DNA from: Arthrobacter sp. PAMC25564
GTDB taxonomy: Bacteria; Actinomycetota; Actinomycetes; Actinomycetales; Micrococcaceae
Direction: 5' to 3'
NCBI RefSeq assembly: GCF_004798705.1
Contig: NZ_CP039290.1
Location: forward strand, 2,852,001-2,916,000
Length of the DNA: 64,000 nucleotides
In this document: in pieces, positions 4,476-18,807 of the stretch
Numbering within the stretch: the stretch's first letter is position 1
Layout of the letters: each line of letters starts with the position of its first letter
Translations under genes and position numbers: made by a program
Notes under the pieces: generated by a model
Databases searched by the model: none
Told to the model about the DNA's origin: nothing
The model's input: only the letters and a program-made list of their open reading frames with translations

Positions 4476-6827
4476 GTGACTCGTAAGACTCCTCAGGTCG
4501 AGGAACCGTCCGAGAAAGAGCTTGTTGTCGGGAACGGGCCGAAGAGCTGGGCCGCGGGCGTCCCGGGCGTATACCACTCCATGAAGCCGGCGATCGAGCA
4601 GATGGGGCTGAACCGGACCCGCAAAACCGTTATGGCCATGAACCAGAAGCACGGCTTCGACTGCCCAAGCTGCGCGTGGCCGGACCCGAACCACCGCAAG
4701 GCCTTCGAATTCTGTGAAAACGGAGCAAAAGCCGTCACGTGGGAGGCGACGCCGGTGGTCATCGCCCACGAGTTCTGGGCGGAGCATTCCGTGAGCGAGC
4801 TGCGGAGCCGCTCCGAGTACTGGCTGGGCATGCAGGGCCGCCTCACGGAGCCGGTCCACAAGCCGGCCGGTGAGGACCATTACAAGCCGGTCACCTGGCC
4901 CGAAGCGATCCGGATCATCGCGGACAAGCTCAAGAGCCTGGACTCACCTGACGAGGCTGCCTTTTATACCAGCGGCCGGACGTCGAACGAGGCCGCCTTC
5001 CTCTACCAGCTGCTGGTCCGCGGCTACGGCACCAACAACCTGCCGGACTGCTCCAACATGTGCCACGAATCCTCGGGCTGGGCCATGGGCCAGACCATCG
5101 GCATCGGCAAGGCCACCGTCAACTTCGACGACTACGCCAACGCGGACCTGATCATCGTCATGGGCCAGAACCCGGGAACCAATCACCCCCGGATGATGAC
5201 CGAGCTTGAGAACTGCAAGCACAACGGCGGCAAGATCGTCGCCGTCAATCCGCTGCCCGAGGCCGGCCTGCGCCGGTACAAGAATCCGCAGCAGGTCAAC
5301 GGAGTCATCGGCCACGGCGTCCAGATCGCGGACCAATTCCTTCAGATCCGGATCGGCGGCGACATGGCGCTGCTGCAGGCCGTGTCCAAGCGCGTCCTCG
5401 ATGCCGAGGCAAAGAACCCCGGGAAGGTCCTGGACCACGCGTTCCTGGCAGAACACTGTGAGGGACTTGAGGAGCTCAAGGAGCACCTGGCCGGGCTGGA
5501 TGAGCGCGCCGTACTGGAAGCCACGGGCCTGCGCAGCGAGGACATCGATGAGGTCGCCGCCCGCTACCTCAAGGCTGAGAAAGTCATCATCACCTGGGCC
5601 ATGGGGATCACCCAGCAGAAGAAGGGCGTGGCCACCATCAAGGAGATTATCAACCTCCTGCTGCTCCGCGGCAACATCGGCAAGCCCGGCGCCGGCGCGT
5701 CCCCCATCCGGGGCCACAGCAACGTCCAAGGCGACCGCACCATGGGCATCTGGGAGCAGATGCCGCAGTCCTTTATGGAAGCCCTCGGCAAGGAGTTCGG
5801 CTTCGAGCCGCCCCGGGAACACGGCGTGGACGCCGTGGAAACCATCAACAGGATGCGCGACGGCAGGATCAAAGCTTTCGTGGCGCTCGGCGGCAACTTC
5901 GTCGGCGCCATCTCGGACACGAACGCCGCTGAAGCGGCCATGCAGAACACCGAACTGTCCGTACAGATCTCCACGAAACTCAACCGGTCCCACACGGTGA
6001 CCGGCGCGGAAGCCCTGATCCTGCCCACGATGGGCCGGAGCGAGATCGATGTCCAGGAGTCGGGGCCACAATTCGTGTCGGTGGAGGACACCGTCTGCGC
6101 CGTGCACCCCTCCTGGGGCAGCGTTGAACCGGTTTCACACCAACTCCTCTCCGAACCGGCCATCGTCAGCCGGCTCGGCAAGGCGCTGGTCGGTGACACG
6201 GTCCAGGCCGACTGGGACGGTTTCGAGAAGAACTACGACCTGATCCGGGACCACATCTCGCGGGTCGTCGGCGGCTGCGAGGACTACAACGAGCGGATCC
6301 GGCAGGAAGGTGGCTTCATCCTGGCGAACGGGCCGCGGGATTCCCGCACCTTCCCCACACCGACGGGCAAGGCAGTGCTGACCGTCAACTGGCTGGAACA
6401 CGTGGAGAAGCCGGAAGGCACGCTGATCCTGCAGAGCATGCGCTCCCACGACCAGTTCAACACCACCATCTACTCGCATAACGACCGCTACCGGGGCATC
6501 AAGAAGGGCCGCCATGTCGTGTTCGTGAACCCGGAGGACATCGCCGAACTCGGCCTTGCCGACGGGCAGTATGTCGATATCCGCGGCGTATACGAGGACG
6601 GCGAGGAACGCGTGGTCCGCAAGTTCCGGTTGGTTTCCTACCCCACCGCCCGCGGCTGCGCGGCCGCCTACTACCCGGAGGCCAACGTGCTGGTGCCGCT
6701 GAACCACACGGCCGAAGGCAGCAACACTCCAGTCTCAAAGGCGGTGATTGTCCGGCTCGAACCCAGCAAGGACCAGACCCCGGACGGTCCGGCCAGCCTG
6801 GCATCCGGCGCGGCCCAGGCACGGTAG
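4476..6827 (+). CDS. FdhF/YdeP-family molybdopterin oxidoreductase
   Basis: 783 residues of the bis-MGD molybdopterin oxidoreductase family, YdeP/formate-dehydrogenase-alpha-like branch. Near the N-terminus DCPSCAWPDP (Cys63, Cys66) and Cys80 suggest a reduced Fe-S site. DCSNMCHESSGW around residues 190-200 occupies the place of the Mo-liganding Cys/SeCys segment in FdhF. MGQNPGTNHPRMM and GNIGKPGAGASPIRGHSNVQ are cofactor-binding blocks, and the C-terminal molydop-binding domain is complete. The GTG start follows AGAAGGGAAG. Formate oxidation is not established for YdeP-type proteins, and E. coli YdeP is linked to acid resistance, so the substrate is open. It sits beside other molybdenum genes and ends at a large palindromic element. 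Confidence 0.85.
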   Translation: MTRKTPQVEEPSEKELVVGNGPKSWAAGVPGVYHSMKPAIEQMGLNRTRKTVMAMNQKHGFDCPSCAWPDPNHRKAFEFCENGAKAVTWEATPVVIAHEFWAEHSVSELRSRSEYWLGMQGRLTEPVHKPAGEDHYKPVTWPEAIRIIADKLKSLDSPDEAAFYTSGRTSNEAAFLYQLLVRGYGTNNLPDCSNMCHESSGWAMGQTIGIGKATVNFDDYANADLIIVMGQNPGTNHPRMMTELENCKHNGGKIVAVNPLPEAGLRRYKNPQQVNGVIGHGVQIADQFLQIRIGGDMALLQAVSKRVLDAEAKNPGKVLDHAFLAEHCEGLEELKEHLAGLDERAVLEATGLRSEDIDEVAARYLKAEKVIITWAMGITQQKKGVATIKEIINLLLLRGNIGKPGAGASPIRGHSNVQGDRTMGIWEQMPQSFMEALGKEFGFEPPREHGVDAVETINRMRDGRIKAFVALGGNFVGAISDTNAAEAAMQNTELSVQISTKLNRSHTVTGAEALILPTMGRSEIDVQESGPQFVSVEDTVCAVHPSWGSVEPVSHQLLSEPAIVSRLGKALVGDTVQADWDGFEKNYDLIRDHISRVVGGCEDYNERIRQEGGFILANGPRDSRTFPTPTGKAVLTVNWLEHVEKPEGTLILQSMRSHDQFNTTIYSHNDRYRGIKKGRHVVFVNPEDIAELGLADGQYVDIRGVYEDGEERVVRKFRLVSYPTARGCAAAYYPEANVLVPLNHTAEGSNTPVSKAVIVRLEPSKDQTPDGPASLASGAAQAR

Positions 6828-7357: not shown

Positions 7358-8338
7358 TCAGCTCCACAGCGCGACGTGGAACTTCGAACCCCGGCGCTCG
7401 AGCCCCCGCGAACCGCCCGGGGCGACCATCGCGGCGGTCGCGTCGGCAGTGCCGGCGAAGCGCTGCAGCGTCTGCGCCATCGTGGTGGTCCGGTGGTGGT
7501 CCAGGGTGCTCGCCCACCACAGGCCTGTGACCGGTGTCCCGACGACGGGCAGCCGGACGAGGACCCCGCCCTGGAACTCGGCCCGGACAATGTGGCCGAG
7601 CGCCAGCATGATGCCCTCCCCCGCCCGGACCGCAGCCAAGGCTTCCGTCTCGCTGCTGAGCCGGATGACCTCCGGCGCCACCCCCATTGACGCCAGCCAG
7701 CGTCCCTCCTCCGAGCTGTCCTGGATCCCCGCCGGTCCGGCAAACCACGGCCGGTCCAGCAGCCGGGCCACGGAGACCGGTCCGTGCGGCCGGGCCAGCG
7801 GATGCCCCGCGGCCGCGACCAGGGCTCGCTGGTAGCGCAGGAACGGAACGCACTCCAGGCCCGGCTTGCTCACGGCCGTACCCGCCGGCGCGCTCGGACG
7901 GGCACCCAGGGCGATGTCGTACGCGCGTTCCTGCAGGAGTGAGGCAAGGTCCTCGGCGGACTCGACCACGACGTCCACCGAAGCGCCGGGGGCACGCTTG
8001 GTGAAGAGGTCCAGCAGCCGGCCGGCCGCGTGCTCGGCGAACGGCGCTGTCGCAGCGATCTTCAGCCGTCCGGCGTCGTTCTGGGCGTGGGAAACTTCCC
8101 AGCGGGCCTGGTCCGCCAGCCCGACGATGTCCTGGGCATGGTCGGCCAGCGCCCGGCCGCCGGGGGTCAGTGCTATGCCTCCCCCGGCGCGCACGAAGAG
8201 CGGATCACCAAGGTCCTGCCGGAGCGCCGTCAAAGCAGCGGACACCGCCGGTTCGCTGACGCCGAGGGCCTCCGCGGCAGCGTGCAGCGAGCCCAGCCGG
8301 GCGACGAGGGCGAACGTGCGGAGCTGGCTCAATGTCAT
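7358..8338 (-). CDS. LysR-family transcriptional regulator, divergent from the cox operon
   Basis: About 326 residues. An N-terminal winged HTH (TLSQLRTFALVARLGSLHAA, then AEALGVSEPAVSAALTALRQ) is followed by a periplasmic-binding-protein-like effector domain. This is the standard LysR layout and length. It is transcribed away from coxMSL across a 119-base intergenic region holding a near-perfect palindrome directly in front of this gene, so control of the cox operon with autoregulation is likely. ATG at 8338 is favoured; an in-frame GTG two codons upstream is possible, and neither has a strong Shine-Dalgarno sequence. The inducer is unknown. LysR-type regulators are commonly reported beside coxMSL in actinobacteria. 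Confidence 0.88.
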   Translation of the reverse strand: MTLSQLRTFALVARLGSLHAAAEALGVSEPAVSAALTALRQDLGDPLFVRAGGGIALTPGGRALADHAQDIVGLADQARWEVSHAQNDAGRLKIAATAPFAEHAAGRLLDLFTKRAPGASVDVVVESAEDLASLLQERAYDIALGARPSAPAGTAVSKPGLECVPFLRYQRALVAAAGHPLARPHGPVSVARLLDRPWFAGPAGIQDSSEEGRWLASMGVAPEVIRLSSETEALAAVRAGEGIMLALGHIVRAEFQGGVLVRLPVVGTPVTGLWWASTLDHHRTTTMAQTLQRFAGTADATAAMVAPGGSRGLERRGSKFHVALWS

Positions 8339-8346
8339 CGACACGG

Positions 8347-8457: not shown

Positions 8458-9336
8458 ATGCAGATTCCGGCTCCTTTCGACTATGTGCGGGCCACTTCGG
8501 TGGACAACGCCCTGGAACTCCTCTCGCGCCACGGCACGGAGTCACGGGTCGTGGCCGGGGGCCACAGCCTCCTGCCGATGATGAAGCTCCGGCTCTCCCG
8601 GCCCGAGTGGCTGATCGATATCAACGACCTGTACGAACTCGACTTCATCCTGCGCGACGGCGACACCCTGCGCGTCGGTGCGCTGACGCGGCACACGACG
8701 CTCCTGGAGTCGGATGAAATCGCGGCGCTCTTTCCCATCGTCCGTGACGCCGAAGCCGTGATTGCCGATCCGATCGTCCGGAACCGCGGGACCATCGGCG
8801 GATCGCTCTGCCAGGCTGACCCGGCCGAGGACCTGTCCACGGTCTGCGATGTGCTGGGCGCGGAAGCCGTGGTCCGGGGGCCGGCCGGCGAGCGCATCCT
8901 GGCGATGGCTGACTTCCACCGCGGACCGTATGAAACGGCGGTGGGCCAGGACGAGCTGCTGTGTGAGCTCCGCTTCCCGATCCATCCCCGTTCCGGCAGC
9001 GCCTACGAAAAGGTCGAACGCCGGGTGGGCGACTGGGCCGTCGGCGCCGCGGGCGCGTCCGTGACCCTCGCGGCGGACGGCACCATCGCCGAGGCCGCTG
9101 TCGGACTCACAGCTCTCGGGCTCGGCCACACCGTCGCCGAGGCCGCAGGGCTGCTCCGCGGCCAGCAGCCCCGAGAGGAACTTTTTGTGGAGGCCGGACG
9201 CCTTGCCGCGGCAGCCTGCAACCCGGTGTCCGACCAGCGCGGCCCGATTGACTACAAACGGCATCTCGCCGACGAACTCACCCGGCGGGTGCTGCGGCAA
9301 GCCTGCGCCCGCGCCGCCCGGACCCAGGAAGGCTGA
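8458..9336 (+). CDS. coxM: Aerobic carbon monoxide dehydrogenase, medium (FAD) subunit
   Basis: 292 residues of the molybdenum hydroxylase FAD-binding subunit family. The two FAD pyrophosphate motifs are AGGHS (residues 33-37) and TIGGS (112-116), at nearly the same positions as in Oligotropha CoxM. It passes electrons from the small subunit's Fe-S clusters to the quinone pool or another acceptor. It is the first gene of the operon, with GAGGTGGG before the ATG and five bases to coxS. The M-S-L order and the form I active-site motif in the large subunit support CO dehydrogenase rather than xanthine dehydrogenase. Confidence 0.93.
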   Translation: MQIPAPFDYVRATSVDNALELLSRHGTESRVVAGGHSLLPMMKLRLSRPEWLIDINDLYELDFILRDGDTLRVGALTRHTTLLESDEIAALFPIVRDAEAVIADPIVRNRGTIGGSLCQADPAEDLSTVCDVLGAEAVVRGPAGERILAMADFHRGPYETAVGQDELLCELRFPIHPRSGSAYEKVERRVGDWAVGAAGASVTLAADGTIAEAAVGLTALGLGHTVAEAAGLLRGQQPREELFVEAGRLAAAACNPVSDQRGPIDYKRHLADELTRRVLRQACARAARTQEG

Positions 9337-9341
9337 AGCGG

Positions 9342-9869
9342 ATGCAGATCAGCATGACCGTCAACGGCAACGAAGTCACGTCCGACATTGAGCCCCGCGT
9401 GCTCCTGGTCCACTACATCCGCGAGGTCCTCGGACTGACCGGTACCCACTGGGGATGCGATACCAGCAACTGCGGGACCTGCGTGGTCCTGATGGACGGC
9501 CAGCCGGTGAAGTCCTGCACCGTCCTCGCGGCGATGGCTGCCGGACATGACATCCGCACGGTCGAGGGACTGGCCAGCGGCGCAACCCTGGACCCGGTCC
9601 AGCAGGGCTTCATGGAGGAGCACGGGCTGCAGTGCGGTTTCTGCACCCCCGGGATGATGCTGACCGCCCGCGCCCTGCTCGATAAGAACCCGCACCCGGA
9701 CGCCACCGAGATCCGGCAGGCCATTTCAGGCCAGATTTGCCGGTGCACCGGCTACGCCACGATCGTCCGCTCGGTACAGTGGGCGGCTGCCCACCCGGCC
9801 GGCGTCACCGCGGCCGCGGACACCGCGGCCACAGCCGAAGAGGCACAGGACACAGAGGTGAAGGCATGA
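9342..9869 (+). CDS. coxS: Aerobic carbon monoxide dehydrogenase, small [2Fe-2S] subunit
   Basis: 175 residues with both [2Fe-2S] domains of the xanthine oxidase family: Cys39, 44, 47 and 59 form the plant-ferredoxin-like cluster, and Cys98, 101, 133 and 135 (CGFCTPG and CRCTGY) form the cluster near molybdenum. All eight ligands are present. A C-terminal extension of about 25 alanine/threonine/glutamate-rich residues is not needed for cluster binding. The stop overlaps the start of coxL (ATGA), implying coupled translation and fixed stoichiometry. Confidence 0.94.
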   Translation: MQISMTVNGNEVTSDIEPRVLLVHYIREVLGLTGTHWGCDTSNCGTCVVLMDGQPVKSCTVLAAMAAGHDIRTVEGLASGATLDPVQQGFMEEHGLQCGFCTPGMMLTARALLDKNPHPDATEIRQAISGQICRCTGYATIVRSVQWAAAHPAGVTAAADTAATAEEAQDTEVKA

Positions 9870-12259
9870 CCGTCATCCACGACCGGCCGTCGAATCCGGC
9901 TGCCGGCGACGAGGACCGCCCGATCGGCTACGGCCGGATCCAGCGCAAGGAAGACCCGCGCTTTGTCCGCGGCAAGGGCCACTACGTGGACGATATTGTC
10001 CTGCCCGGCATGCTGCACGGCGCCATCCTGCGGGCTCCGGTGGCGCACGCCCGGCTCGTGTCCATCGATACCACCAACGCCCTGGCGCATCCCAAGGTGG
10101 TGGCCGTCATCACCGGCAAGGACCTGCTCGGCCTGAAGCTCGCGTGGGCGCCGACGCTCTCCGCGGATGTCCAGGCCGTCCTGGTCACGGACAAGGTGCG
10201 CTTCCAGGGCCAGGAGGTCGCCTTCGTCGTGGCGGAGGACCGCTACGCCGCCCGCGACGCGCTGGAGCTGATCGACGTCGAATACGATGTCCTGCCCCCG
10301 GTCATCGACGCCCGCAAGGCGCTCGACCCGGACGCTCCGGTGATCCGCGACGACATCGAGGGCCGGACGGACAACCACATCTTTGACTGGGAAATGGGCG
10401 ACAAGGCCGCAACCGAGGCAGTCTTCGCCTCCGCCGACGTCGTGGTCAGCCAGGAGATGGTGTACCCGCGGGTCCACCCCGCGCCGATGGAGACCTGCGG
10501 CGCCGTCGCCGATTTCGACGCGGTCAGCGGAAAACTGACCCTCTACGAGACCACCCAGGCCCCGCACGCCCACCGCACCCTGTTCGCGATTGTCGCCGGC
10601 ATCCCCGAGCACAAGATCCGGATCGTCTCCCCCGATATTGGAGGCGGCTTCGGCAACAAGGTCGGCATCTACCCCGGCTACATCCTCGCCGTCGTCGGCT
10701 CAATCGTCACCGGCCGCCCGGTCAAATGGGTGGAGGACCGCTCCGAGAACCTGATGTCCACCTCCTTCGCCCGGGACTACATCATGCAAGGCGAGATCGC
10801 GGCCACCAAGGACGGCAGGATCCTCGCCCTGCGCACCCACGTGCTGGCCGACCACGGCGCCTTCAACGCCACCGCCCAGCCCACCAAGAACCCGGCCGGC
10901 TTCTTCTCCATCTTCACCGGAAGCTACGACCTCAAAGCCGCGTACTGCTCCGTCACGGGCGTCTACACGAACAAGGCGCCGGGCGGCGTCGCCTATGCCT
11001 GTTCCTTCCGCGTCACGGAGGCCGTCTACCTCGTTGAGCGGATGGTGGACATCCTGGCCCGCAAACTCGGAATGGACCCGGCGGAGCTCCGGCTCAAGAA
11101 CTTTATCAAGCCCGAGCAGTTTCCCTACACCAATCAGACCGGCTGGGTGTACGACTCCGGCAACTACGAACCCGCCATGCGGCTGTCCATGCAGCTGGCC
11201 GGCTATGACGAGCTCCGCCGCGAGCAGCAGGAGAGGCGCGGGCGCGGGGAACTCATGGGCATCGGGGTCTCCTTCTTCACGGAAGTCGTGGGAGCCGGCC
11301 CCCGGAAGCACTTCGACATCGTTGGCCTCGGCATGGCCGACGGCGCCGAACTGCGCGTCCACCCCACAGGCAAGGCCGTCGTCCGCCTCTCGGTGCAAAG
11401 CCAGGGCCAGGGCCACGAAACCACCTTCGCCCAGATCGTGGCCGAGGAACTCGGCATCCCGCCGGAGGACATCGACGTCGTCCACGGCGACACCGACCAG
11501 ACACCGTTCGGCCTCGGCACGTACGGGAGCCGCTCGACGCCGGTGAGCGGCGGCGCCGTCGCCCTCGTCGCCCGCAAGGTGCGGGAGAAAGCGAAGCTGA
11601 TCGCGGCGGCCATGCTGGAGACCCGGGCGGAAGACCTCGAGTGGGAGAAGGGCCGCTGGTTCGTCAAGGGCGATCCCAGCGCAGGGAAGACCATCTCGGA
11701 AATCGCCATGGCTGCCCACGGCACCATGACGCTGCCCGAGGGGGTCGACGGCAACCTCGACGCCGAGGTCACGTATGACCCGCCGAACCTGACGTTCCCG
11801 TTCGGAGCCTACATCTGTGTGGTCGACATCGATCCGGGCACCGGGCACGTCAAGGTCCGCCGCTTCATCGCGGTGGATGACTGCGGTACCCGGATCAACC
11901 CGATGATCATCGAGGGCCAGGTGCACGGCGGACTCACCGACGGCGTCGGGATGGCCCTGATGGAGATCATCGAGTTCGACGCCGAGGGAAACTGCCTGGG
12001 CGGGTCGTTCATGGACTACCTGATCCCCACCGCGATGGAAGTGCCGGACTGGGAAACCGGTTTCACCGTCACCCCGTCACCGCACCACCCCATCGGAGCC
12101 AAAGGCATCGGCGAGTCCGCCACCGTCGGCTCGCCCCCGGCCATCGTGAACGCCGTCGTCGACGCGTTGGCACCCTACGGGGTGGTCCACATGGACATGC
12201 CCTGCACCCCGGCCCGCGTCTGGGCCGCCATGCAGGGCCACGCAAGGCCGCCGATCTGA
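9866..12259 (+). CDS. coxL: Aerobic carbon monoxide dehydrogenase, large (Mo-Cu) subunit, form I
   Basis: 797 residues, the catalytic subunit that oxidises CO to CO2 at a Mo-Cu site carrying molybdopterin cytosine dinucleotide. AYACSFR at residues 376-382 fits the form I signature AYxCSFR; Cys379 is the expected copper-sulfur ligand. The variable position is Ala where Oligotropha has Arg. Further cofactor motifs include PDIGGGFGNKVG, GQGQGHET-like blocks and GIGESATVGSPPA with the conserved active-site Glu at about 750. The start chosen is the ATG overlapping coxS; a longer in-frame frame has no homology. This separates the gene from form II CoxL-like proteins, whose role in CO oxidation is uncertain. 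Confidence 0.94.
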   Translation: MTVIHDRPSNPAAGDEDRPIGYGRIQRKEDPRFVRGKGHYVDDIVLPGMLHGAILRAPVAHARLVSIDTTNALAHPKVVAVITGKDLLGLKLAWAPTLSADVQAVLVTDKVRFQGQEVAFVVAEDRYAARDALELIDVEYDVLPPVIDARKALDPDAPVIRDDIEGRTDNHIFDWEMGDKAATEAVFASADVVVSQEMVYPRVHPAPMETCGAVADFDAVSGKLTLYETTQAPHAHRTLFAIVAGIPEHKIRIVSPDIGGGFGNKVGIYPGYILAVVGSIVTGRPVKWVEDRSENLMSTSFARDYIMQGEIAATKDGRILALRTHVLADHGAFNATAQPTKNPAGFFSIFTGSYDLKAAYCSVTGVYTNKAPGGVAYACSFRVTEAVYLVERMVDILARKLGMDPAELRLKNFIKPEQFPYTNQTGWVYDSGNYEPAMRLSMQLAGYDELRREQQERRGRGELMGIGVSFFTEVVGAGPRKHFDIVGLGMADGAELRVHPTGKAVVRLSVQSQGQGHETTFAQIVAEELGIPPEDIDVVHGDTDQTPFGLGTYGSRSTPVSGGAVALVARKVREKAKLIAAAMLETRAEDLEWEKGRWFVKGDPSAGKTISEIAMAAHGTMTLPEGVDGNLDAEVTYDPPNLTFPFGAYICVVDIDPGTGHVKVRRFIAVDDCGTRINPMIIEGQVHGGLTDGVGMALMEIIEFDAEGNCLGGSFMDYLIPTAMEVPDWETGFTVTPSPHHPIGAKGIGESATVGSPPAIVNAVVDALAPYGVVHMDMPCTPARVWAAMQGHARPPI

Positions 12260-12260
12260 C

Positions 12261-13169
12261 ATGACGCCGACTGCAGACTCCCTTGCGGCCCGGGCGAACG
12301 AGCTCGCCTCCCGCCGCGAGCCGTTCGTGCACGCCATCGTGGTCCGCGCCCAGCACCCCACCAGCGCCCATGCCGGGGACACGGCCCTGATCCTGCCAAG
12401 CGGCGAGATCCAGGGTTTCGTCGGCGGGAACTGCGTCGAGTCCTCGGTGCGGGAGTACAGCCTGCGGGTCCTGGCATCGCAGGAACCCCTGCTGCTGCGC
12501 ATTATCCCCGGCGAGCCGTCCCGCAGCGCCGAGGAAGGCGCGGTCGAGGTCTCCAACCCGTGCCTGAGCGGCGGGGCCATCGAGATCTTCCTCGAGCCAC
12601 ACATCCCGGCGCCCAGGGTTCTGGTTGTCGGCACCACGCCGGTGGCCCAGGCCCTGGAGACACTCGGCTCCGGCGTCGGCCTGGCCGTGGAACTCACCGA
12701 CGGGGAATCAGCAGCGCCGCGGGCCGACGATGCGGCGCTGATTGTGGCCTCGCACGGCAAAGCGGAGGAAGCCGCGCTCGAGGCCGCCCTGCGTGCCGGA
12801 GTGCCGTATGTCGCGCTGGTGGCCAGCAGCACGCGGGGCGCCGCGGTGCTGGAATCCCTCGACGTCGACCCGTGGCAGCGCGCCCGCGTCTTCACCCCGG
12901 CCGGCCTGCAGCTGGGCGCCCGCACCCCCGGCGAAATCGCGCTCGCGATCCTGGCCCAGCTCATCCAGGAGCGGGCGAAGTCCCGGCACGCCGCCCCGGC
13001 GCCTGCGACCGTGCCGGCGACGGCGATCGACCCCGTCTGCGGCATGACCGTCGCCGCCGTGGAAGCCTCGCTGCAGCTCGAGCACAACGGTGCCACCGTG
13101 TACTTCTGCTCGTCCGGCTGCCGTGCGGCCTTCCGCAAAGATCCGGAGCGCTATGCCCTCACCCTCTGA
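12261..13169 (+). CDS. XdhC/CoxI-type maturation factor fused to a C-terminal YHS domain
   Basis: 302 residues. The N-terminus is an XdhC_CoxI domain (GFVGGNCVESSVREYSLRVL), the middle a Rossmann-like XdhC_C domain ending LGARTPGEIALAILAQ, and after an Ala/Pro linker the last 45 residues form a YHS domain (DPVCGMTV, then YFCSSGCRAAF, FRKDPERYAL). XdhC proteins insert sulfurated Mo cofactor into molybdenum hydroxylases; YHS domains bind metals, often copper, through their cysteines. The fusion inside a CO dehydrogenase operon suggests, but does not prove, a role in building the CuSMoO2 centre. The ATG follows the coxL stop after one base. The next gene starts inside its 3' end. Confidence 0.88.
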   Translation: MTPTADSLAARANELASRREPFVHAIVVRAQHPTSAHAGDTALILPSGEIQGFVGGNCVESSVREYSLRVLASQEPLLLRIIPGEPSRSAEEGAVEVSNPCLSGGAIEIFLEPHIPAPRVLVVGTTPVAQALETLGSGVGLAVELTDGESAAPRADDAALIVASHGKAEEAALEAALRAGVPYVALVASSTRGAAVLESLDVDPWQRARVFTPAGLQLGARTPGEIALAILAQLIQERAKSRHAAPAPATVPATAIDPVCGMTVAAVEASLQLEHNGATVYFCSSGCRAAFRKDPERYALTL

Positions 13170-13815
13170 ACGCCCGCCCACAATGCACCGGACGGCAGGG
13201 CTGATCCTGGCGGCCGGCGCGTCGCTGCGGCTGGGCCGGCCCAAGCAGCTGCTCCCCTACGGCCACGGCGTCCTCCTCGACGCCGTGCTGGCGACCGCCC
13301 GGGACTGCGGCTTCGACCAGACCGTGCTGGCCCTGGGAGGTGCAGCCGGGGAAGTGCAGCGCACGGTCGACACCAGCGGCTGCGAGATCGTGCTCAACCC
13401 GGACTTCGGCGAGGGCTGTTCGTCCTCGATCGCCGCCGGCATCGGCGTGCTCCACCCGGACACGGACGCCGTGGTCCTCCTGCTGGGTGACCAGCCGGGA
13501 GTCCGTGCCGTCAACGCCCGGGCGGTCCTCGCGCTGCTGTCCACCGGGGAGGCTGCCGGGGAGGCCAGCGGCGGCCATGGCGCCCCGGGCATCGCCGTCT
13601 GCCGCTACGACGACGGCGTCGGCCACCCCATGGCATTCACCCGCCGGATGCTCCCGGAGCTTGCCGCCCTGCACGGCGACAAGGCAGTCTGGAAGCTGCT
13701 GGAGCAGCGGGCGGACGACGTCGTCGAACTACCCGTTCCGGGCCCCGTCCCGCCGGACGTCGACACGGAAGAGGACTACCGCCGGGTCCTGGCCGGACTG
13801 GAGGGCACGCCGTGA
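13153..13815 (+). CDS. mocA: MocA-like molybdenum cofactor cytidylyltransferase
   Basis: 220 residues of the MobA/MocA nucleotidyltransferase family. It has the N-terminal NTP-binding signature LILAAGASLRLGRPKQLLPY, and GDQPGV rather than the usual MobA form, which favours CTP:molybdopterin cytidylyltransferase. CO dehydrogenase needs the cytosine dinucleotide form of the cofactor, so the operon position fits well. ATG at 13153 is chosen for its GGAG and overlaps the previous gene by 17 bases; an ATG at 13183 lacks a ribosome binding site. The stop overlaps the coxD start (GTGA). Confidence 0.82.
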   Translation: MPSPSERPPTMHRTAGLILAAGASLRLGRPKQLLPYGHGVLLDAVLATARDCGFDQTVLALGGAAGEVQRTVDTSGCEIVLNPDFGEGCSSSIAAGIGVLHPDTDAVVLLLGDQPGVRAVNARAVLALLSTGEAAGEASGGHGAPGIAVCRYDDGVGHPMAFTRRMLPELAALHGDKAVWKLLEQRADDVVELPVPGPVPPDVDTEEDYRRVLAGLEGTP

Positions 13816-14735
13816 ACACGGCGGCGCGGACCGGCGCGGAGGAGGACGTGCAGCGCCGGATCCCGGATGTCCCGTCACTGATGGCCGCGCTCGACAGCAG
13901 CGACTACCTGGCCGACGTCGGACTGGCCACAGCGCTGTTCCTGGCCGTCCGGCTGCCGCAGCCCATCCTGCTCGAGGGCGAGGCCGGCGTCGGCAAGACC
14001 GAGGCGGCAAAGGCCCTGGCCGGGCTGCTGGACACGCCGCTGTACCGGCTGCAGTGCTACGAGGGAATCGACGCCGGCGAGGCCCTCTACGAATGGAACC
14101 ACCAGCGGCAGCTGCTCGGAATCCGCCTGGCGGAAGTCCGGGACGCCGCCGTCACCGAAACCGACCTCTTCGGCCCGGAATACCTGCTGCGCCGGCCGCT
14201 GCTGCAGGCGATCGAACATCCCGGTCCGCGGCCCGCGGTCCTCCTGCTGGATGAGATCGACCGCGCCGATGCCGAGTTCGAGGCCTTCACCTTCGAACTG
14301 CTCGCCGAGGCCGCGGTCACCATCCCGGAGCTGGGCACCATCCGGGCCACCCACCCGCCAATCGTCATCCTTACCTCCAACCGGACGCGGGACCTGCACG
14401 ACGCCCTGACCCGGCGCTGCCTCTATCACTGGATCGACTACCCCGGCCCGGAACGGATCGCGGAGATTGTGCGTCGCCGCGTGCCGGCCAGCAGCGGCCC
14501 GCTGGCCCTGCAGGCCGCCGCGGTGATCACCAGGCTGCGCACCCTGGACCTCGCCAAACCGCCGGGGATCTCCGAGGCCATCGACTGGGTCTCCGCCCTC
14601 GCCGTGCTGGGCATCGGACACATAGACGCCACGACGGCGGAACGGACCCTCGGCTCGATCGTCAAGAACCGCGACGACCTGGAACTGGTCGGCGCCCGCG
14701 GGGCCGACTGGCTCGTGGCCGGCACGGGCGGGTGA
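13812..14735 (+). CDS. coxD: CoxD-type MoxR AAA ATPase for CO dehydrogenase maturation
   Basis: 307 residues. Walker A is GEAGVGKT (56-63), Walker B LLLDEID (144-150), and sensor/arginine-finger segments ILTSNRTRDLHDALTRRC follow. CoxD in Oligotropha is a chaperone-like ATPase required for sulfuration and copper insertion at the Mo site, acting with the VWA protein CoxE. The adjacent VWA gene and GTGA overlaps on both sides show the same partnership here. It starts at GTG. Cytoplasmic, with no membrane segment. Confidence 0.9.
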   Translation: MNTAARTGAEEDVQRRIPDVPSLMAALDSSDYLADVGLATALFLAVRLPQPILLEGEAGVGKTEAAKALAGLLDTPLYRLQCYEGIDAGEALYEWNHQRQLLGIRLAEVRDAAVTETDLFGPEYLLRRPLLQAIEHPGPRPAVLLLDEIDRADAEFEAFTFELLAEAAVTIPELGTIRATHPPIVILTSNRTRDLHDALTRRCLYHWIDYPGPERIAEIVRRRVPASSGPLALQAAAVITRLRTLDLAKPPGISEAIDWVSALAVLGIGHIDATTAERTLGSIVKNRDDLELVGARGADWLVAGTGG

Positions 14736-15979
14736 GCCCCCTGATGGCCGGGAGCATAAAGGCCACGGCCGCCGCGCTCCCCTCGGTGGAGGCGGCCGGC
14801 CTGGCTGCGGCGTTCGTCACCGCGCTGCGCCGGGCGGGGCTGTTTTGCTCGCCGGACCGGGCAGCCCGGCTGGCCGAGGCCCTTCGCCTGATCCCACCCA
14901 GCGACGTCGACAAGCTTTACTGGGCGTGCCGGGTGGTGCTGGTGTCCGCCCGCGAACAGCTGCCCGTCTTCGACGCCGTCTTCTCTGCGGTGTTCCGCGG
15001 CGGCTTCGACCCCGCCGCGCGGCCCCGCAGTGCCGCGGCCCCGGCAGCGTCACCGCCCGGTGGCCCTGGCGAAGCACGCACCCGGCCCTCCCCGGCCGAG
15101 GACCGCACCCCGGGACACGCGCCGGCGCAACAGCGGACGGCACCGGCGATTGCCTCCGCGGGACCGGACAGCGGGGACCGCACCACCCCGGAGCGGGAAG
15201 CCGTGCTGGCCATGGCCTCCACCCAGGAGCGGCTGCACGAAACGTCCTTCGCGCAGTTGACCGGGGAGGAAGTGAAGGAGATCCGGCGGCTGGCGTCCCG
15301 GCTGCTGCTTGCCACCCCAACGCGTTTGAGCCGCCGCAGCCGCAAATCAGCACACAGCAGCGCCCGCCTGGACATCCGCGCCACGGTCCGCGCGGCCAGG
15401 CGCTCGGGCACCGGCACCACCCGCCTGTTGTATGCACGCCGTCGCCAGCAGCGCCGCAAGCTGGTGATGCTGTGCGATGTCTCCGGCTCGATGGAACCGT
15501 ATGCGCGGATCTTCGTCGCGGTGCTGCAGGGAGCAGTGGCAACTGCCGGGGCCGAGGCCTTCGTATTTTCCACCCGGCTGACGCGCCTGACCCGGCAACT
15601 GACGCGCCGCGATCCGGACGAGGCCCTGGCCCGTGCCGCGGAGGCCGCCCCGGACTGGGCCGGCGGCACCCGGATTGCCGACAGCATCCGGCACTTTGTC
15701 GACGAACACGGCCGCCGCGGCCTGGCCCGCGGCGCGGTGGTGGTGATCTTCTCGGACGGCTGGGCGCAGGAGGATCCCGAACAGGTCGCGGCCCAGATGG
15801 CGCGGCTACGGCGGCTGGCTCACCGGATCATCTGGGTCAACCCACGCAAGGCCGCTCCGGAATACCGGCCGCTGGCGGGCGGCATGGCGGCGGCCCTGCC
15901 ATACTGCGACGCTTTCGTCAGCGGACACAGCTACGCGGCATTGGCGGAGGTGGCGGCCGCGATCGGCGGCGAAGGATAG
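14732..15979 (+). CDS. coxE: CoxE-type VWA domain protein
   Basis: About 415 residues with a C-terminal von Willebrand A domain: the MIDAS motif DVSGSM begins at about Asp249, with later VIFSDGWAQEDPE. The N-terminal half is helical with a long Pro/Ala-rich linker (about residues 90-155). CoxE works with the CoxD ATPase to mature CO dehydrogenase. The GTG start overlaps the coxD stop; an internal ATG four codons later is an alternative. The 26-base gap to coxG carries a strong Shine-Dalgarno sequence (GGAAAGAGGGAA). Confidence 0.88.
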   Translation: MSPLMAGSIKATAAALPSVEAAGLAAAFVTALRRAGLFCSPDRAARLAEALRLIPPSDVDKLYWACRVVLVSAREQLPVFDAVFSAVFRGGFDPAARPRSAAAPAASPPGGPGEARTRPSPAEDRTPGHAPAQQRTAPAIASAGPDSGDRTTPEREAVLAMASTQERLHETSFAQLTGEEVKEIRRLASRLLLATPTRLSRRSRKSAHSSARLDIRATVRAARRSGTGTTRLLYARRRQQRRKLVMLCDVSGSMEPYARIFVAVLQGAVATAGAEAFVFSTRLTRLTRQLTRRDPDEALARAAEAAPDWAGGTRIADSIRHFVDEHGRRGLARGAVVVIFSDGWAQEDPEQVAAQMARLRRLAHRIIWVNPRKAAPEYRPLAGGMAAALPYCDAFVSGHSYAALAEVAAAIGGEG

Positions 15980-16005: not shown

Positions 16006-16794
16006 ATGCAGATAGACAGCACTTTCTCGGTCGTCGCCCCGATCGACACCGTATGGGACACCATCATGGACTTTGAACGTGTGGCCGGCTGCGTCCCCGG
16101 CGCCAGGATCCTGAACAAGCTCTCGGACGACGCCTACCAGGTGGGCATGACCGTGAAGCTGGGCCCGGTCAACATGCAGTACAAAGGGCTGCTCAACGTG
16201 ATCGAGCGCAACGCCGCCGGACACCGCGCCGTGCTCAGCGGCAAGGCGCAGGAAACCCGCGGCCAGGGCACCGCCGAAGCCACGGTGACCCTGCTACTGA
16301 CGGACGAGGCCGGCGGCACAACCCGCGGCACCGTCAACGCCGATCTCTCGCTTTCCGGCAAGGCCGCAGCCATGGGCAAGGGCGTGATTGGGAGTGTCAC
16401 CGAACAGATGATGGCCTTGTTCGCCGGCAATCTGCAGGCCATGATCGCCGGGCCCGCGCCGGAGCCTGCCGCCGGGGCCGGGACCGCGGCACCGGCGTCC
16501 GGGACGGCGCCGGAACCCGTGACCCAGCCCGCGGCCGCGCCGTCGGCGGCGGCCTCGCCGTCTGCCCCGCCAGCAGCCAAACCTATGCCGTCGGCCGCCC
16601 TCCCGAGCCGCGCACCCGCCGGCAGCCTGGACGTCCTCAGCCTCGCGAAGGGGATCGCGGAGGAGCAGCTCTCCAGCCCCGGAAAGGTCCTGGCGCTCGT
16701 GGCGGTGGTGGCGTGCGCCTCCTACTGGGCGGGCCGGACGTCCGCGTTCCGGCTGATCCGGGCGATCGGGAGGCTGAAGTCCGACCGTGCGTGA
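16006..16794 (+). CDS. coxG: CoxG membrane-recruitment protein (SRPBCC family)
   Basis: 262 residues. Residues 1-145 form an SRPBCC/CoxG domain (FERVAGCVPGARILNKLSDD is the family signature). It is followed by a roughly 65-residue Ala/Pro-rich low-complexity linker and a C-terminal transmembrane helix (VLALVAVVACASYWAGR). CoxG is reported to tether CO dehydrogenase to the membrane and may bind quinone, linking CO oxidation to the respiratory chain. The helix-tailed form here fits that. The stop overlaps the next XdhC gene by eight bases. Confidence 0.9.
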   Translation: MQIDSTFSVVAPIDTVWDTIMDFERVAGCVPGARILNKLSDDAYQVGMTVKLGPVNMQYKGLLNVIERNAAGHRAVLSGKAQETRGQGTAEATVTLLLTDEAGGTTRGTVNADLSLSGKAAAMGKGVIGSVTEQMMALFAGNLQAMIAGPAPEPAAGAGTAAPASGTAPEPVTQPAAAPSAAASPSAPPAAKPMPSAALPSRAPAGSLDVLSLAKGIAEEQLSSPGKVLALVAVVACASYWAGRTSAFRLIRAIGRLKSDRA

Positions 16795-17914
16795 TGTCCT
16801 GGCCGCCATGATGCCGGGCTGGCAGAAGGGTGACACCGCCGGCCTGGCCACCGTTGTGAGCACGTTCAAGTCAGCCCCGCGGCTTCCGGGCGCGTCGATG
16901 CTCGTCACCGCCGAGGGGGAAGCAGTCGGTTCCGTCTCCGGCGGCTGCGTCGAGGGCGCCGTGTACGAGCTGGCCACCCAGGTCCAGAAAGACGGCACCC
17001 CCGTCCTGGTTCGCTATGGGATCAGCGACGACGACGCGTTCGCCGTCGGCCTGACCTGCGGCGGGATCATCGACATCTTCGTCGAGCCGGTTTCCCGGCA
17101 AAGCTTCGCCCAGCTCGACGCCGTCAGGCAGGACATCGCCGGTGAGCGGCGCGTCGGCGTCGCCACGGTCATCGAACACCCGGACACCACGTGGTTGGGC
17201 CGGCACCTGATCGTGCGGCCGGACGGCTTTGAGGGCGACCTGGGTTCGGAGCGGGCCAACCACGCCGTGGGCGATGACACCCGGGGCCTGCTCGCCGCCG
17301 GCCGCTCCGGCATCCTGAGCTACGGCCCCGACGGGGAGCGGCTGGACACCGGGATGCGGGTCTTCTTCGCCAGCTACGCCCCGCCGCCGCGGATGCTGGT
17401 CTTCGGCGCGATCGACTTCGCCGCAGCCCTGGCCCGGCTGGGCACCTTCCTGGGCTACCGCGTCACGGTGTGTGATGCCCGGGCTGTCTTCGCCACCCCC
17501 GCACGCTTTCCCGATGCGGCGGAGGTCGTCAACGCCTGGCCGCACCGCTATCTTGCCGAGCAGCTGGCACAAGGCCTGGTGGATGAACGCACCGTGATTT
17601 GCGTCCTCACGCACGATCCGAAGTTCGACATTCCGCTGCTGGACGTTGCCCTGCGCGGCCGGCCGATCGCCTTCATCGGTGCCATGGGTTCGCGCCGGAC
17701 CCACACGGACCGGCTTGCCAGGCTGCGTGAGGCGGGCCTGGGCGAGGAGCAGCTGGCCAGGCTCCACAGCCCGGTGGGCCTTGACCTTGGCGCCCGTACG
17801 CCCGAAGAGACAGCGGTGTCCATCGCCGCGGAGTTCATCGCCAAGCAGTGGAACGGCAGCGGGGAACCACTCCGGCAACTCGGGGAACGGATCCACCACG
17901 ACGAGCAGGATTGA
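16787..17914 (+). CDS. coxF: XdhC/CoxF-family Mo-cofactor insertion factor
   Basis: 375 residues. The N-terminal XdhC_CoxI domain (STFKSAPRLPGASMLVTAEG, GSVSGGCVEGAVYE, LTCGGIIDIFVEP) is followed by the Rossmann XdhC_C domain (FGAIDFAAALARLGTFLGYR, FIGAMGSRRTHTDRL, GARTPEETAVSIAAEFIA). By family it binds and inserts sulfurated molybdenum cofactor into CoxL. It is the second XdhC-type protein of the operon and, unlike the first, lacks a YHS tail and has the more canonical cysteines. It starts at GTG within the coxG 3' end. It closes the continuous, overlapping cox operon. Confidence 0.88.
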   Translation: MRDVLAAMMPGWQKGDTAGLATVVSTFKSAPRLPGASMLVTAEGEAVGSVSGGCVEGAVYELATQVQKDGTPVLVRYGISDDDAFAVGLTCGGIIDIFVEPVSRQSFAQLDAVRQDIAGERRVGVATVIEHPDTTWLGRHLIVRPDGFEGDLGSERANHAVGDDTRGLLAAGRSGILSYGPDGERLDTGMRVFFASYAPPPRMLVFGAIDFAAALARLGTFLGYRVTVCDARAVFATPARFPDAAEVVNAWPHRYLAEQLAQGLVDERTVICVLTHDPKFDIPLLDVALRGRPIAFIGAMGSRRTHTDRLARLREAGLGEEQLARLHSPVGLDLGARTPEETAVSIAAEFIAKQWNGSGEPLRQLGERIHHDEQD

Positions 17915-17923
17915 CCGGCACCG

Positions 17924-18050
17924 GTGATCGGGACCGCTGCCCTGAGCCGGGGGCTGACGGCACTGCTGCTGGCAGCCTCGCTCTACACGGCGTTCCGCGC
18001 CGGCCGCGGCATCGACGGCAGTCACGTTCGCGGCGCTTGCAGCCTGATAT
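17924..18050 (+). pseudogene. Possible gene-start remnant: one hydrophobic helix then loss of frame sense
   Basis: From a GTG at 17924 about 30 residues look like a membrane-protein beginning (LSRGLTALLLAASLYTAFRA). After roughly residue 33 the frame becomes Ser/Cys-rich and non-protein-like, and it then runs antiparallel in sense to the next gene. It may be the stump of a membrane protein that once followed coxF. It could equally be chance; no family is assigned. Confidence 0.3.
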
Positions 18051-18105
18051 TACGGAGCAGCACGTCAACTTCGCGAGGTTGCTTGCTGTGCTGCAGGATG
18101 TATCC

Positions 18106-18807
18106 ATGCCCGGTATCCGCCCCGCCCTGTCCGTGTCCTGCGCCATCGCCCTCCGCGGCGCCGTGCAGGACGCCATCCTGCCCGCCTTCACCCGCGAAAC
18201 CGGAACCGTCGTCGACGCGCATTACGCCACGACCAGCGCCCTGGTCCAGGAGATCGACGCCGGCGCACGCCCCGACGTCGTCATCGGTATCGCCGCCGCG
18301 ATGGAACGGCTGGGCGACGCCGGGATCCTCGACGCCGGGACGCTGGCGCCGCTCGCCAAGGCCGGGATCGGTATCGCCGTCGGCCCCGGCACCCCCGTAC
18401 CGGACGTTTCGACGGTAGAGGCCCTCATCAGTGCACTGACCGCGGCCCGCTCCGTGGCCTACTCACGGAACGGACCCAGCGGCGTCTATCTCGCCCGGCT
18501 GATGCGGGAACTGGGCATCGCGGAAAAGGTCAACGAACGGGCCACCGTCGTCGAGACGGGGTTCACCGCGCTGGCACTGCTGGACGGGCGGGCGGACCTT
18601 GCGGTCCAGCAAGTGAGCGAGCTCCGCTACGTGCCGGAGGCGATAATCGCCGGGCCGCTCCCGGCTGCCGTCCAGCACTACACCGAGTTTTCCGCCGGTA
18701 TCGCTGCCGGCGCCCGGGACCACTCCGGCGCCGCGGCACTGCTGGCGTTCCTGACCGCCGGTCCGGCCCAGGCGGCATACTCCGCTGCGGGGCTGGAAGC
18801 CGGCTGA
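18106..18807 (+). CDS. ModA-like substrate-binding-fold protein without a signal peptide
   Basis: 233 residues of the type 2 periplasmic-binding fold, most like molybdate-binding ModA proteins: ALRGAVQDAILPAFTRETGT near the start, ARPDVVIGIAAAMERL, and SVAYSRNGPSGVYLARLM in the hinge region. There is no lipobox, signal peptide or membrane segment, and the protein begins almost directly in the first beta strand, so as read it would be cytoplasmic. ATG at 18106 has a weak GCAGGATG ahead; an in-frame GTG at 18088 is possible. No ModB or ModC gene is near. It may be an intracellular sensor, an orphan binding protein, or a truncated gene in this scarred region. Confidence 0.7.
   Translation: MPGIRPALSVSCAIALRGAVQDAILPAFTRETGTVVDAHYATTSALVQEIDAGARPDVVIGIAAAMERLGDAGILDAGTLAPLAKAGIGIAVGPGTPVPDVSTVEALISALTAARSVAYSRNGPSGVYLARLMRELGIAEKVNERATVVETGFTALALLDGRADLAVQQVSELRYVPEAIIAGPLPAAVQHYTEFSAGIAAGARDHSGAAALLAFLTAGPAQAAYSAAGLEAG

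Follow-up and report, generated by a model that had tools for sequence, protein, structure and literature searches.

Aerobic microbes use form I CO dehydrogenase to take up CO from air and soil, and to our knowledge the route of copper insertion into this enzyme is unsettled. A gene in the CO dehydrogenase operon of Arthrobacter sp. PAMC25564 raises the question of whether a maturation factor might carry the copper itself. Within the 64,000-nucleotide stretch that we analysed (the window), this gene lies at 12261..13169 on the + strand and encodes, from an ATG start, a 302-residue protein that we identify below, by blastp and tree, as an orthologue of CoxF. Its open reading frame contains an XdhC_CoxI domain at residues 16-80 (12306..12500, +; PF02625, 56.6 bits, cut-off 24.3), an XdhC_C Rossmann domain at residues 120-234 (12618..12962, +; 72.2 bits, cut-off 29.7), and a C-terminal YHS domain at residues 256-299 (13026..13157, +; PF04945, 48.1 bits, cut-off 30.3). 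With all three models, including both XdhC domains, over their curated Pfam cut-offs, the initial annotation of an XdhC-type gene ending in a full YHS domain was correct. The two parts are joined by a variable Ala/Pro-rich linker (residues 241-252; 12981..13016, +), recognized from the alignment and from pLDDT, which falls to 69 at residues 241-250 of the predicted model; the fold-match list for the protein mainly spanned residues 115-246. Conservation and spacing point to four putative metal ligands in the YHS domain, D257 (13029-13031), C260 (13038-13040), C283 (13107-13109) and C287 (13119-13121), all on the + strand. The tail is the sole YHS match in the 4.17-Mb host genome (E ≤ 0.001).

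The gene is located directly 3' of coxL (9866..12259, +), its likely client. This coxL is of form I, with a TIGR02416 score of 1382 bits (cut-off 991) and the motif AYACSFR, whose cysteine we take to be the copper ligand; the assignment of the gene to a form I CO dehydrogenase operon was therefore also correct. In front of coxL are coxM, encoding the FAD subunit (8458..9336, +; FAD_binding_5, CO_deh_flav_C), and coxS, encoding the iron-sulfur subunit (9342..9869, +; Fer2_2, Fer2). On the other side are genes for a MocA-like NTP transferase of the molybdenum cofactor cytidylyltransferase type (13183..13815, +; NTP_transf_3, 110.5 bits; the best NCBIfam model, TIGR03310, scored under its cut-off), the AAA+ ATPase CoxD (13812..14735, +; AAA_5 and position in the operon), the VWA-domain protein CoxE (14732..15979, +; VWA_CoxE, 195 bits), CoxG (16024..16794, +; COXG, 54 bits), and a second, CoxI-like XdhC-family protein (16787..17914, +; PF02625, PF13478, and blastp to CoxI). 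Directly behind the latter is a gene for an SBP_bac_11 extracellular solute-binding protein (17983-18807, +), which possibly binds molybdate. A LysR-type regulator (7358-8344, −) is divergent from coxM, and an FdhF/YdeP-type molybdenum oxidoreductase (4476-6827, +) is encoded further upstream of the cox genes.

It matters which of the two XdhC-family genes is coxF because the enzyme of a coxF mutant contains molybdenum and sulfur, yet hardly any copper. As the reference for the CoxF/CoxI comparison, we used the cox region of Oligotropha (Afipia) carboxidovorans OM5 on plasmid pHCG3. In blastp, residues 1-244 of the YHS-tailed window protein aligned to residues 1-268 of O. carboxidovorans CoxF with 102 bits and 33.5% identity, the alignment stopping where the linker and tail start, while the score to CoxI was 35 bits. 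The last XdhC protein of the window gave 89 bits to CoxI versus 59 to CoxF. We also built a tree of 128 XdhC parts, with YHS excluded, by a quick IQ-TREE run without bootstrap, after removing near-copies and low scorers, which made up 29 of the 157 distinct rows. The window protein fell inside a 103-row CoxF clade that includes O. carboxidovorans CoxF (SH-aLRT 95), and the homologue of the window's last XdhC from a close Arthrobacter (L009) grouped with CoxI in the outgroup. Based on the alignment scores and the tree placement, we assign the YHS-tailed gene as coxF and the last gene as CoxI-like. This reverses the initial annotation, which had named the last XdhC gene coxF and had regarded the YHS-tailed protein as a separate factor beside it. 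A review likewise places CoxF closest to those XdhC homologues that occur in CO dehydrogenase operons, and CoxI closest to PaoD (PMC2997495).

Previous work in O. carboxidovorans (Pelzmann 2014, PMC4240915) found that enzyme from the coxF mutant contained 1.85 Mo, 1.40 sulfane sulfur and 0.043 Cu per mol, compared to 1.47-1.62 Cu in the wild type enzyme, and that its activity was 0.136 rather than 8.529. Because the mutant enzyme is nearly copper-free, CoxF has already been proposed as a copper donor, from the mutant and from a short sequence motif. The premise that the enzyme has no generally recognised, dedicated copper donor therefore holds only in part, a copper role for CoxF having been published in 2014 (PMC4240915). 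As the authors themselves caution, however, CoxE protein is missing from the F::km mutant as well, and the copper defect cannot be attributed to CoxF alone (PMC4240915). The word YHS does not appear in the main text of that study (PMC4240915). O. carboxidovorans CoxF shares with the window protein its XdhC body, its clade and a form I cox operon, but it is 280 residues long with no YHS domain, and its gene sits behind coxD-coxE, whereas the window gene is directly behind coxL. Thus, the copper phenotype has been shown for an orthologue that has no tail (PMC4240915). Since this enzyme is copper-loaded although its CoxF has no YHS domain, the tail is not needed everywhere.

The proposed copper motif of O. 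carboxidovorans CoxF is MCPSHGTM, from which the window protein has counterparts for the Cys, the Ser and the following Gly only. The Cys and Ser are kept in YHS-bearing CoxF proteins; among the YHS-less CoxF of other Pseudomonadota, CPS was present in 15 of 17 rows and the other 2 had no pattern match. The loop at C101 reads CPSxG in O. carboxidovorans-like CoxF versus CxSxG in tailed CoxF. The Cys is also present in the translation of the window's CoxI-like XdhC. With the motif only partly kept, MCPSHGTM is not supported as a general CoxF copper site.

We then consider the tail itself. In an alignment of the window protein with 120 listed close homologues (of 4528), giving 121 rows, mean identity to the window protein was 88% for the XdhC parts and 83% for the YHS domain versus 49% for the linker, whose length ranged from 11 to 46 residues. 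D257, C260, C283 and C287 were all kept in 121 of 121 rows. The difference in identity between YHS and linker, together with these four ligands, argues that the tail is not there by chance. Over a more divergent set of 112 distinct fusions, which together contain 114 copies of the YHS domain, the Asp was kept in 110, the first two Cys in 113 each and the last Cys in 114, and the ligands were nearly invariant even among proteins merely 31-40% identical to the window protein; in these 112 fusions the stretch between XdhC and YHS was 11-62 residues long. Tandem double YHS copies were seen in two CoxF proteins (L036, 10001-11119; L133, from genome G097). A CoxF encoded on a plasmid of Deinococcus sp. 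AJ005 (L084, 7947-9008) has a degenerate YHS tail, with one of the four ligands kept.

To relate the fusion to the type of coxL, we surveyed 618 genomes from three phyla that were drawn regardless of the fusion (149 Actinomycetota, 121 Chloroflexota, 348 Pseudomonadota). The XdhC-YHS fusion was present in 48 genomes, 45 of which also had form I coxL, as the initial annotation had predicted; 18 form I genomes had no whole fusion, and 552 genomes had neither (Fisher p about 6e-50, a value that ignores kinship). Among Actinomycetota, where form I coxL was called at E ≤ 1e-250, 25 genomes had form I coxL, 25 had the fusion and 23 had both. In 20 of the 25 the fusion lay at most 150 bases behind coxL on one contig; in three (G013, G028, G105) the two genes were on different contigs, and in G100 and G120 the fusion was beside a contig-end coxL fragment with 51-53% identity to form I versus 42-45% to form II. 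The two form I genomes of this phylum without a whole fusion were G017, in which the gene is cut by the contig, and G143, in which the tail is absent. Chloroflexota gave 20 genomes with form I coxL, 21 with the fusion and 20 with both, and in all 20 the fusion was on the contig and strand of coxL, within about 620 bases behind it. The remaining fusion genome, G234, had no form I match, the sequence being cut at the contig start; hence the three fusion genomes without a form I match (G100, G120, G234) are all cases at contig ends. None of the 10 Chloroflexota genomes with only sub-cut-off coxL relatives contained the fusion. Among the form I genomes sampled, CoxF thus usually carries the YHS domain in Actinomycetota (23/25) and Chloroflexota (20/20).

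Pseudomonadota present a different distribution. With two coxL candidates scored per genome, 18 genomes had form I coxL, 2 had the fusion, and both of these had form I coxL. A CoxF-type protein (E ≤ 1e-60) was found in 18 genomes, 17 of them shared with form I coxL, and 16 of the 18 showed only YHS-less CoxF; one of the 16, G410, has only the paralogue described below.

The XdhC search scored 15 candidates per genome in Actinomycetota, 18 in Chloroflexota and 6 in Pseudomonadota. Its non-fusion rows numbered at least 125 in Actinomycetota (122 XdhC and 3 with YHS only, in other proteins), together with 73 listed XdhC rows in Chloroflexota (E ≤ 1e-30) and 60 in Pseudomonadota (E ≤ 1e-24). Among the matches listed for the three phyla, the YHS part was covered in 0 of 255 other XdhC rows, some of them partial. 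Two Pseudomonadota rows continued beyond the XdhC part (G529 as far as position 296 of 319, G515 as far as 282 of 319); each contains two stop codons, and we take these extensions as read-through. Among the matches listed in the 618 genomes, no XdhC with a YHS tail was seen next to a xanthine dehydrogenase or a form II coxL, and so the fusion is not equally common near these enzymes. The chaperones of the XdhC/PaoD/CoxI family (structures 2we7/2we8 and 3on5) thus differ from the window protein in having no YHS in the 255 rows listed, and CoxF forms its own clade apart from them in the tree.

A scan of species genomes with the window protein as query, from which we used the best 80 of 530 loci, provided a further sample, biased towards the query. 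XdhC and YHS were in one open frame in 69 of the 71 loci L002-L072, and L073-L081 matched the window protein in the YHS part. In Arthrobacter sp. OVS8 (L009) the fused gene is divided between two frames, and in L022 it is open only in its later part; these disruptions may be true breaks or sequencing errors. A coxL with the CSFR motif was present in the same stretch in 62 of the 71, on the opposite strand in L038 and L060; in the remaining 9, coxL was cut, was outside the stretch, or had its motif region uncovered. Fusions were also found in Haloarchaea, Nitrososphaerales, SAR324, Verrucomicrobiota, Gemmatimonadota and Burkholderiales. Three stretches (L126, L150, L152) contain both a form I (CSFR) and a form II (AYRGAGR) coxL.

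How the YHS-less proteins arose can be approached from the tree. The 15 YHS-less proteobacterial CoxF rows, including O. carboxidovorans, form one clade (SH-aLRT 99) nested in a 24-row clade (SH-aLRT 96) with 9 YHS-bearing rows, although the inner forks are not resolved. The sister group of the 24-row clade contains 79 rows, all YHS-bearing except the split gene of L009 and G143, which has a form I operon of the window's class without the tail and adjoins mycobacterial rows in the tree. Because it is nested among YHS-bearing CoxF proteins, O. carboxidovorans CoxF has probably lost the tail. One basal gain and one loss would explain the tree, and two gains would do so equally if the 9 rows were one clade. 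The AIDPVCGM context shared by the fusions would favor a single origin. The tie to form I coxL may reflect one old fusion inherited with CoxF rather than many independent events.

In the stretches searched, we found no separate YHS gene that could stand in for the tail: there were none among frames of at least 100 residues in L113-L179, and none among frames of at least 35 residues in 20 stretches (L082, L113, L161-L178). The latter search recovered five tailed controls; L178 is without CoxF, and some contigs end early. A YHS-less CoxF-like paralogue stands beside YHS-tailed CoxF in L040, L054, L055 and L058, and was also seen in L176 and L177; it forms its own clade and also occurs in G410, a genome without a form I coxL match. 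In 14 of 17 Chloroflexota form I stretches (L143, L145-L149 and L151-L158, among L142-L158), and also in L083, coxL and coxF-YHS were present without coxD or coxE nearby. Loss of CoxE from such genomes was ruled out, as 45 of 45 form I genomes in two phyla had a VWA_CoxE match, the weakest (G056, 39.5 bits) still over the cut-off; in searched genomes whose operon shows only coxL and coxF, CoxE-family genes lie elsewhere.

What a YHS domain might bind can be judged from its relatives. By sequence, the window YHS weakly matches phenol hydroxylase PhN and ribosomal L24e, and toluene monooxygenases match it at E of about 0.05. PhN contains zinc in its YHS-like domain. L24e binds cadmium, and in the solved toluene-4-hydroxylase the YHS is without metal (PMC4626032); YHS/TRASH domains are not copper-only. 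The class IIIc adenylyl cyclase of Mycobacterium phlei resembles the window protein in having a C-terminal YHS behind a short linker, and its ligands (D178/C181/C204/C208) have the same D-x2-C-x22-C-x3-C spacing. The full-length cyclase is stimulated by 1-10 µM Cu2+ while its catalytic part alone is not, and six other metal ions, tested with Mg2+ present, fail to activate it (PMC4626032). Unlike the window protein, the cyclase has an unrelated catalytic part and serves signalling, as a sensor and not as a maturation factor.

The domain make-up, the orthology with CoxF, the linkage to form I coxL and the conserved ligands are observed. Taking these into account, we think it rather likely that CoxF-YHS acts in the maturation of form I (Mo-Cu) CO dehydrogenase, as a widespread form of CoxF that carries copper to the sulfurated molybdenum site. 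The XdhC part, which descends from factors handling the molybdenum cofactor of this enzyme family, would dock on the folded, sulfurated apo-enzyme. The YHS domain would hold one copper ion through Asp257, Cys260, Cys283 and Cys287, and the flexible linker would swing it to the Mo-SH site for direct hand-over, yielding the Mo-S-Cu centre at the motif cysteine of CoxL (AYACSFR). The tail could reach the Mo-SH group because the stretch before it is long and variable. We hold more tentatively, at somewhat under even odds, a broader version in which YHS-tailed CoxF is the ancestral, usual form and a dedicated copper-insertion chaperone, and the O. carboxidovorans form is derived, its loss of the tail having hidden the mechanism.

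Against copper carriage by the tail stands the M. phlei cyclase, in which the response to copper is a sensor effect and not delivery. It is the nearest experimental precedent, with a C-terminal YHS of equal spacing, for the idea that the tail senses copper and gates the XdhC part of CoxF without delivering copper itself, which would also explain how YHS-less CoxF can work. A stretch of 11-62 residues is nevertheless easier to reconcile with a tethered carrier than with a fixed gate, and the tandem YHS copies of L036 and L133 likewise speak against a gate; we regard sensing as unlikely. Just as unlikely, in our estimate, is a purely structural or docking role of the tail, which might contain zinc and help to hold CoxL, CoxD or CoxE without any part in copper handling. 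The existence of YHS-less CoxF would agree with this, as would the YHS-like domains of phenol and toluene hydroxylases, including the metal-free one of toluene-4-hydroxylase (PMC4626032). It sits less well with ligand positions that are conserved, in bacteria as well as archaea, in between 110 and 114 of the 114 copies, and with a fusion that accompanies the copper-containing enzyme of this family, the other XdhC rows, among the matches listed, being without YHS.

Two further readings seem much less probable. A protective role of XdhC for the sulfurated cofactor has been proposed (PMC4240915) and YHS adds three cysteines, so that the thiols of YHS might serve sulfuration, as a persulfide relay or by protecting Mo-SH, instead of copper delivery. 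We give this little credence: coxF mutant enzyme retains most of its sulfane sulfur and loses copper (PMC4240915), and xanthine dehydrogenase relatives also need sulfurated molybdenum, while the other XdhC rows listed have no YHS. Least credible of all is a functionless tail, fused by accident and then simply inherited. Most fusions do occupy a single continuous region of the CoxF tree and may stem from one event, but the better conservation of YHS than of the adjoining linker and the near invariance of the ligands in distant homologues argue against it. Copper carriage by the YHS tail thus remains the reading that we prefer.

The XdhC-YHS architecture is already visible in databases, as all 120 listed homologues (of 4528) combine these Pfam domains, and the record of one bears the name 'YHS domain-containing protein'. 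In the openly licensed literature, we found no paper on an XdhC-YHS fusion or on YHS together with CO dehydrogenase and coxL, nor did we find there any statement that the tailed gene is coxF, that it is linked to form I, or that the model organism probably lost the tail. The distribution of the tail suggests that this model organism, O. carboxidovorans, is the odd one out. A YHS-tailed helper encoded beside the enzyme in distant microbes is a candidate for copper's way into CO dehydrogenase, and the conserved YHS in CoxF of distant phyla gives the copper-donor proposal a concrete site that can be altered residue by residue.
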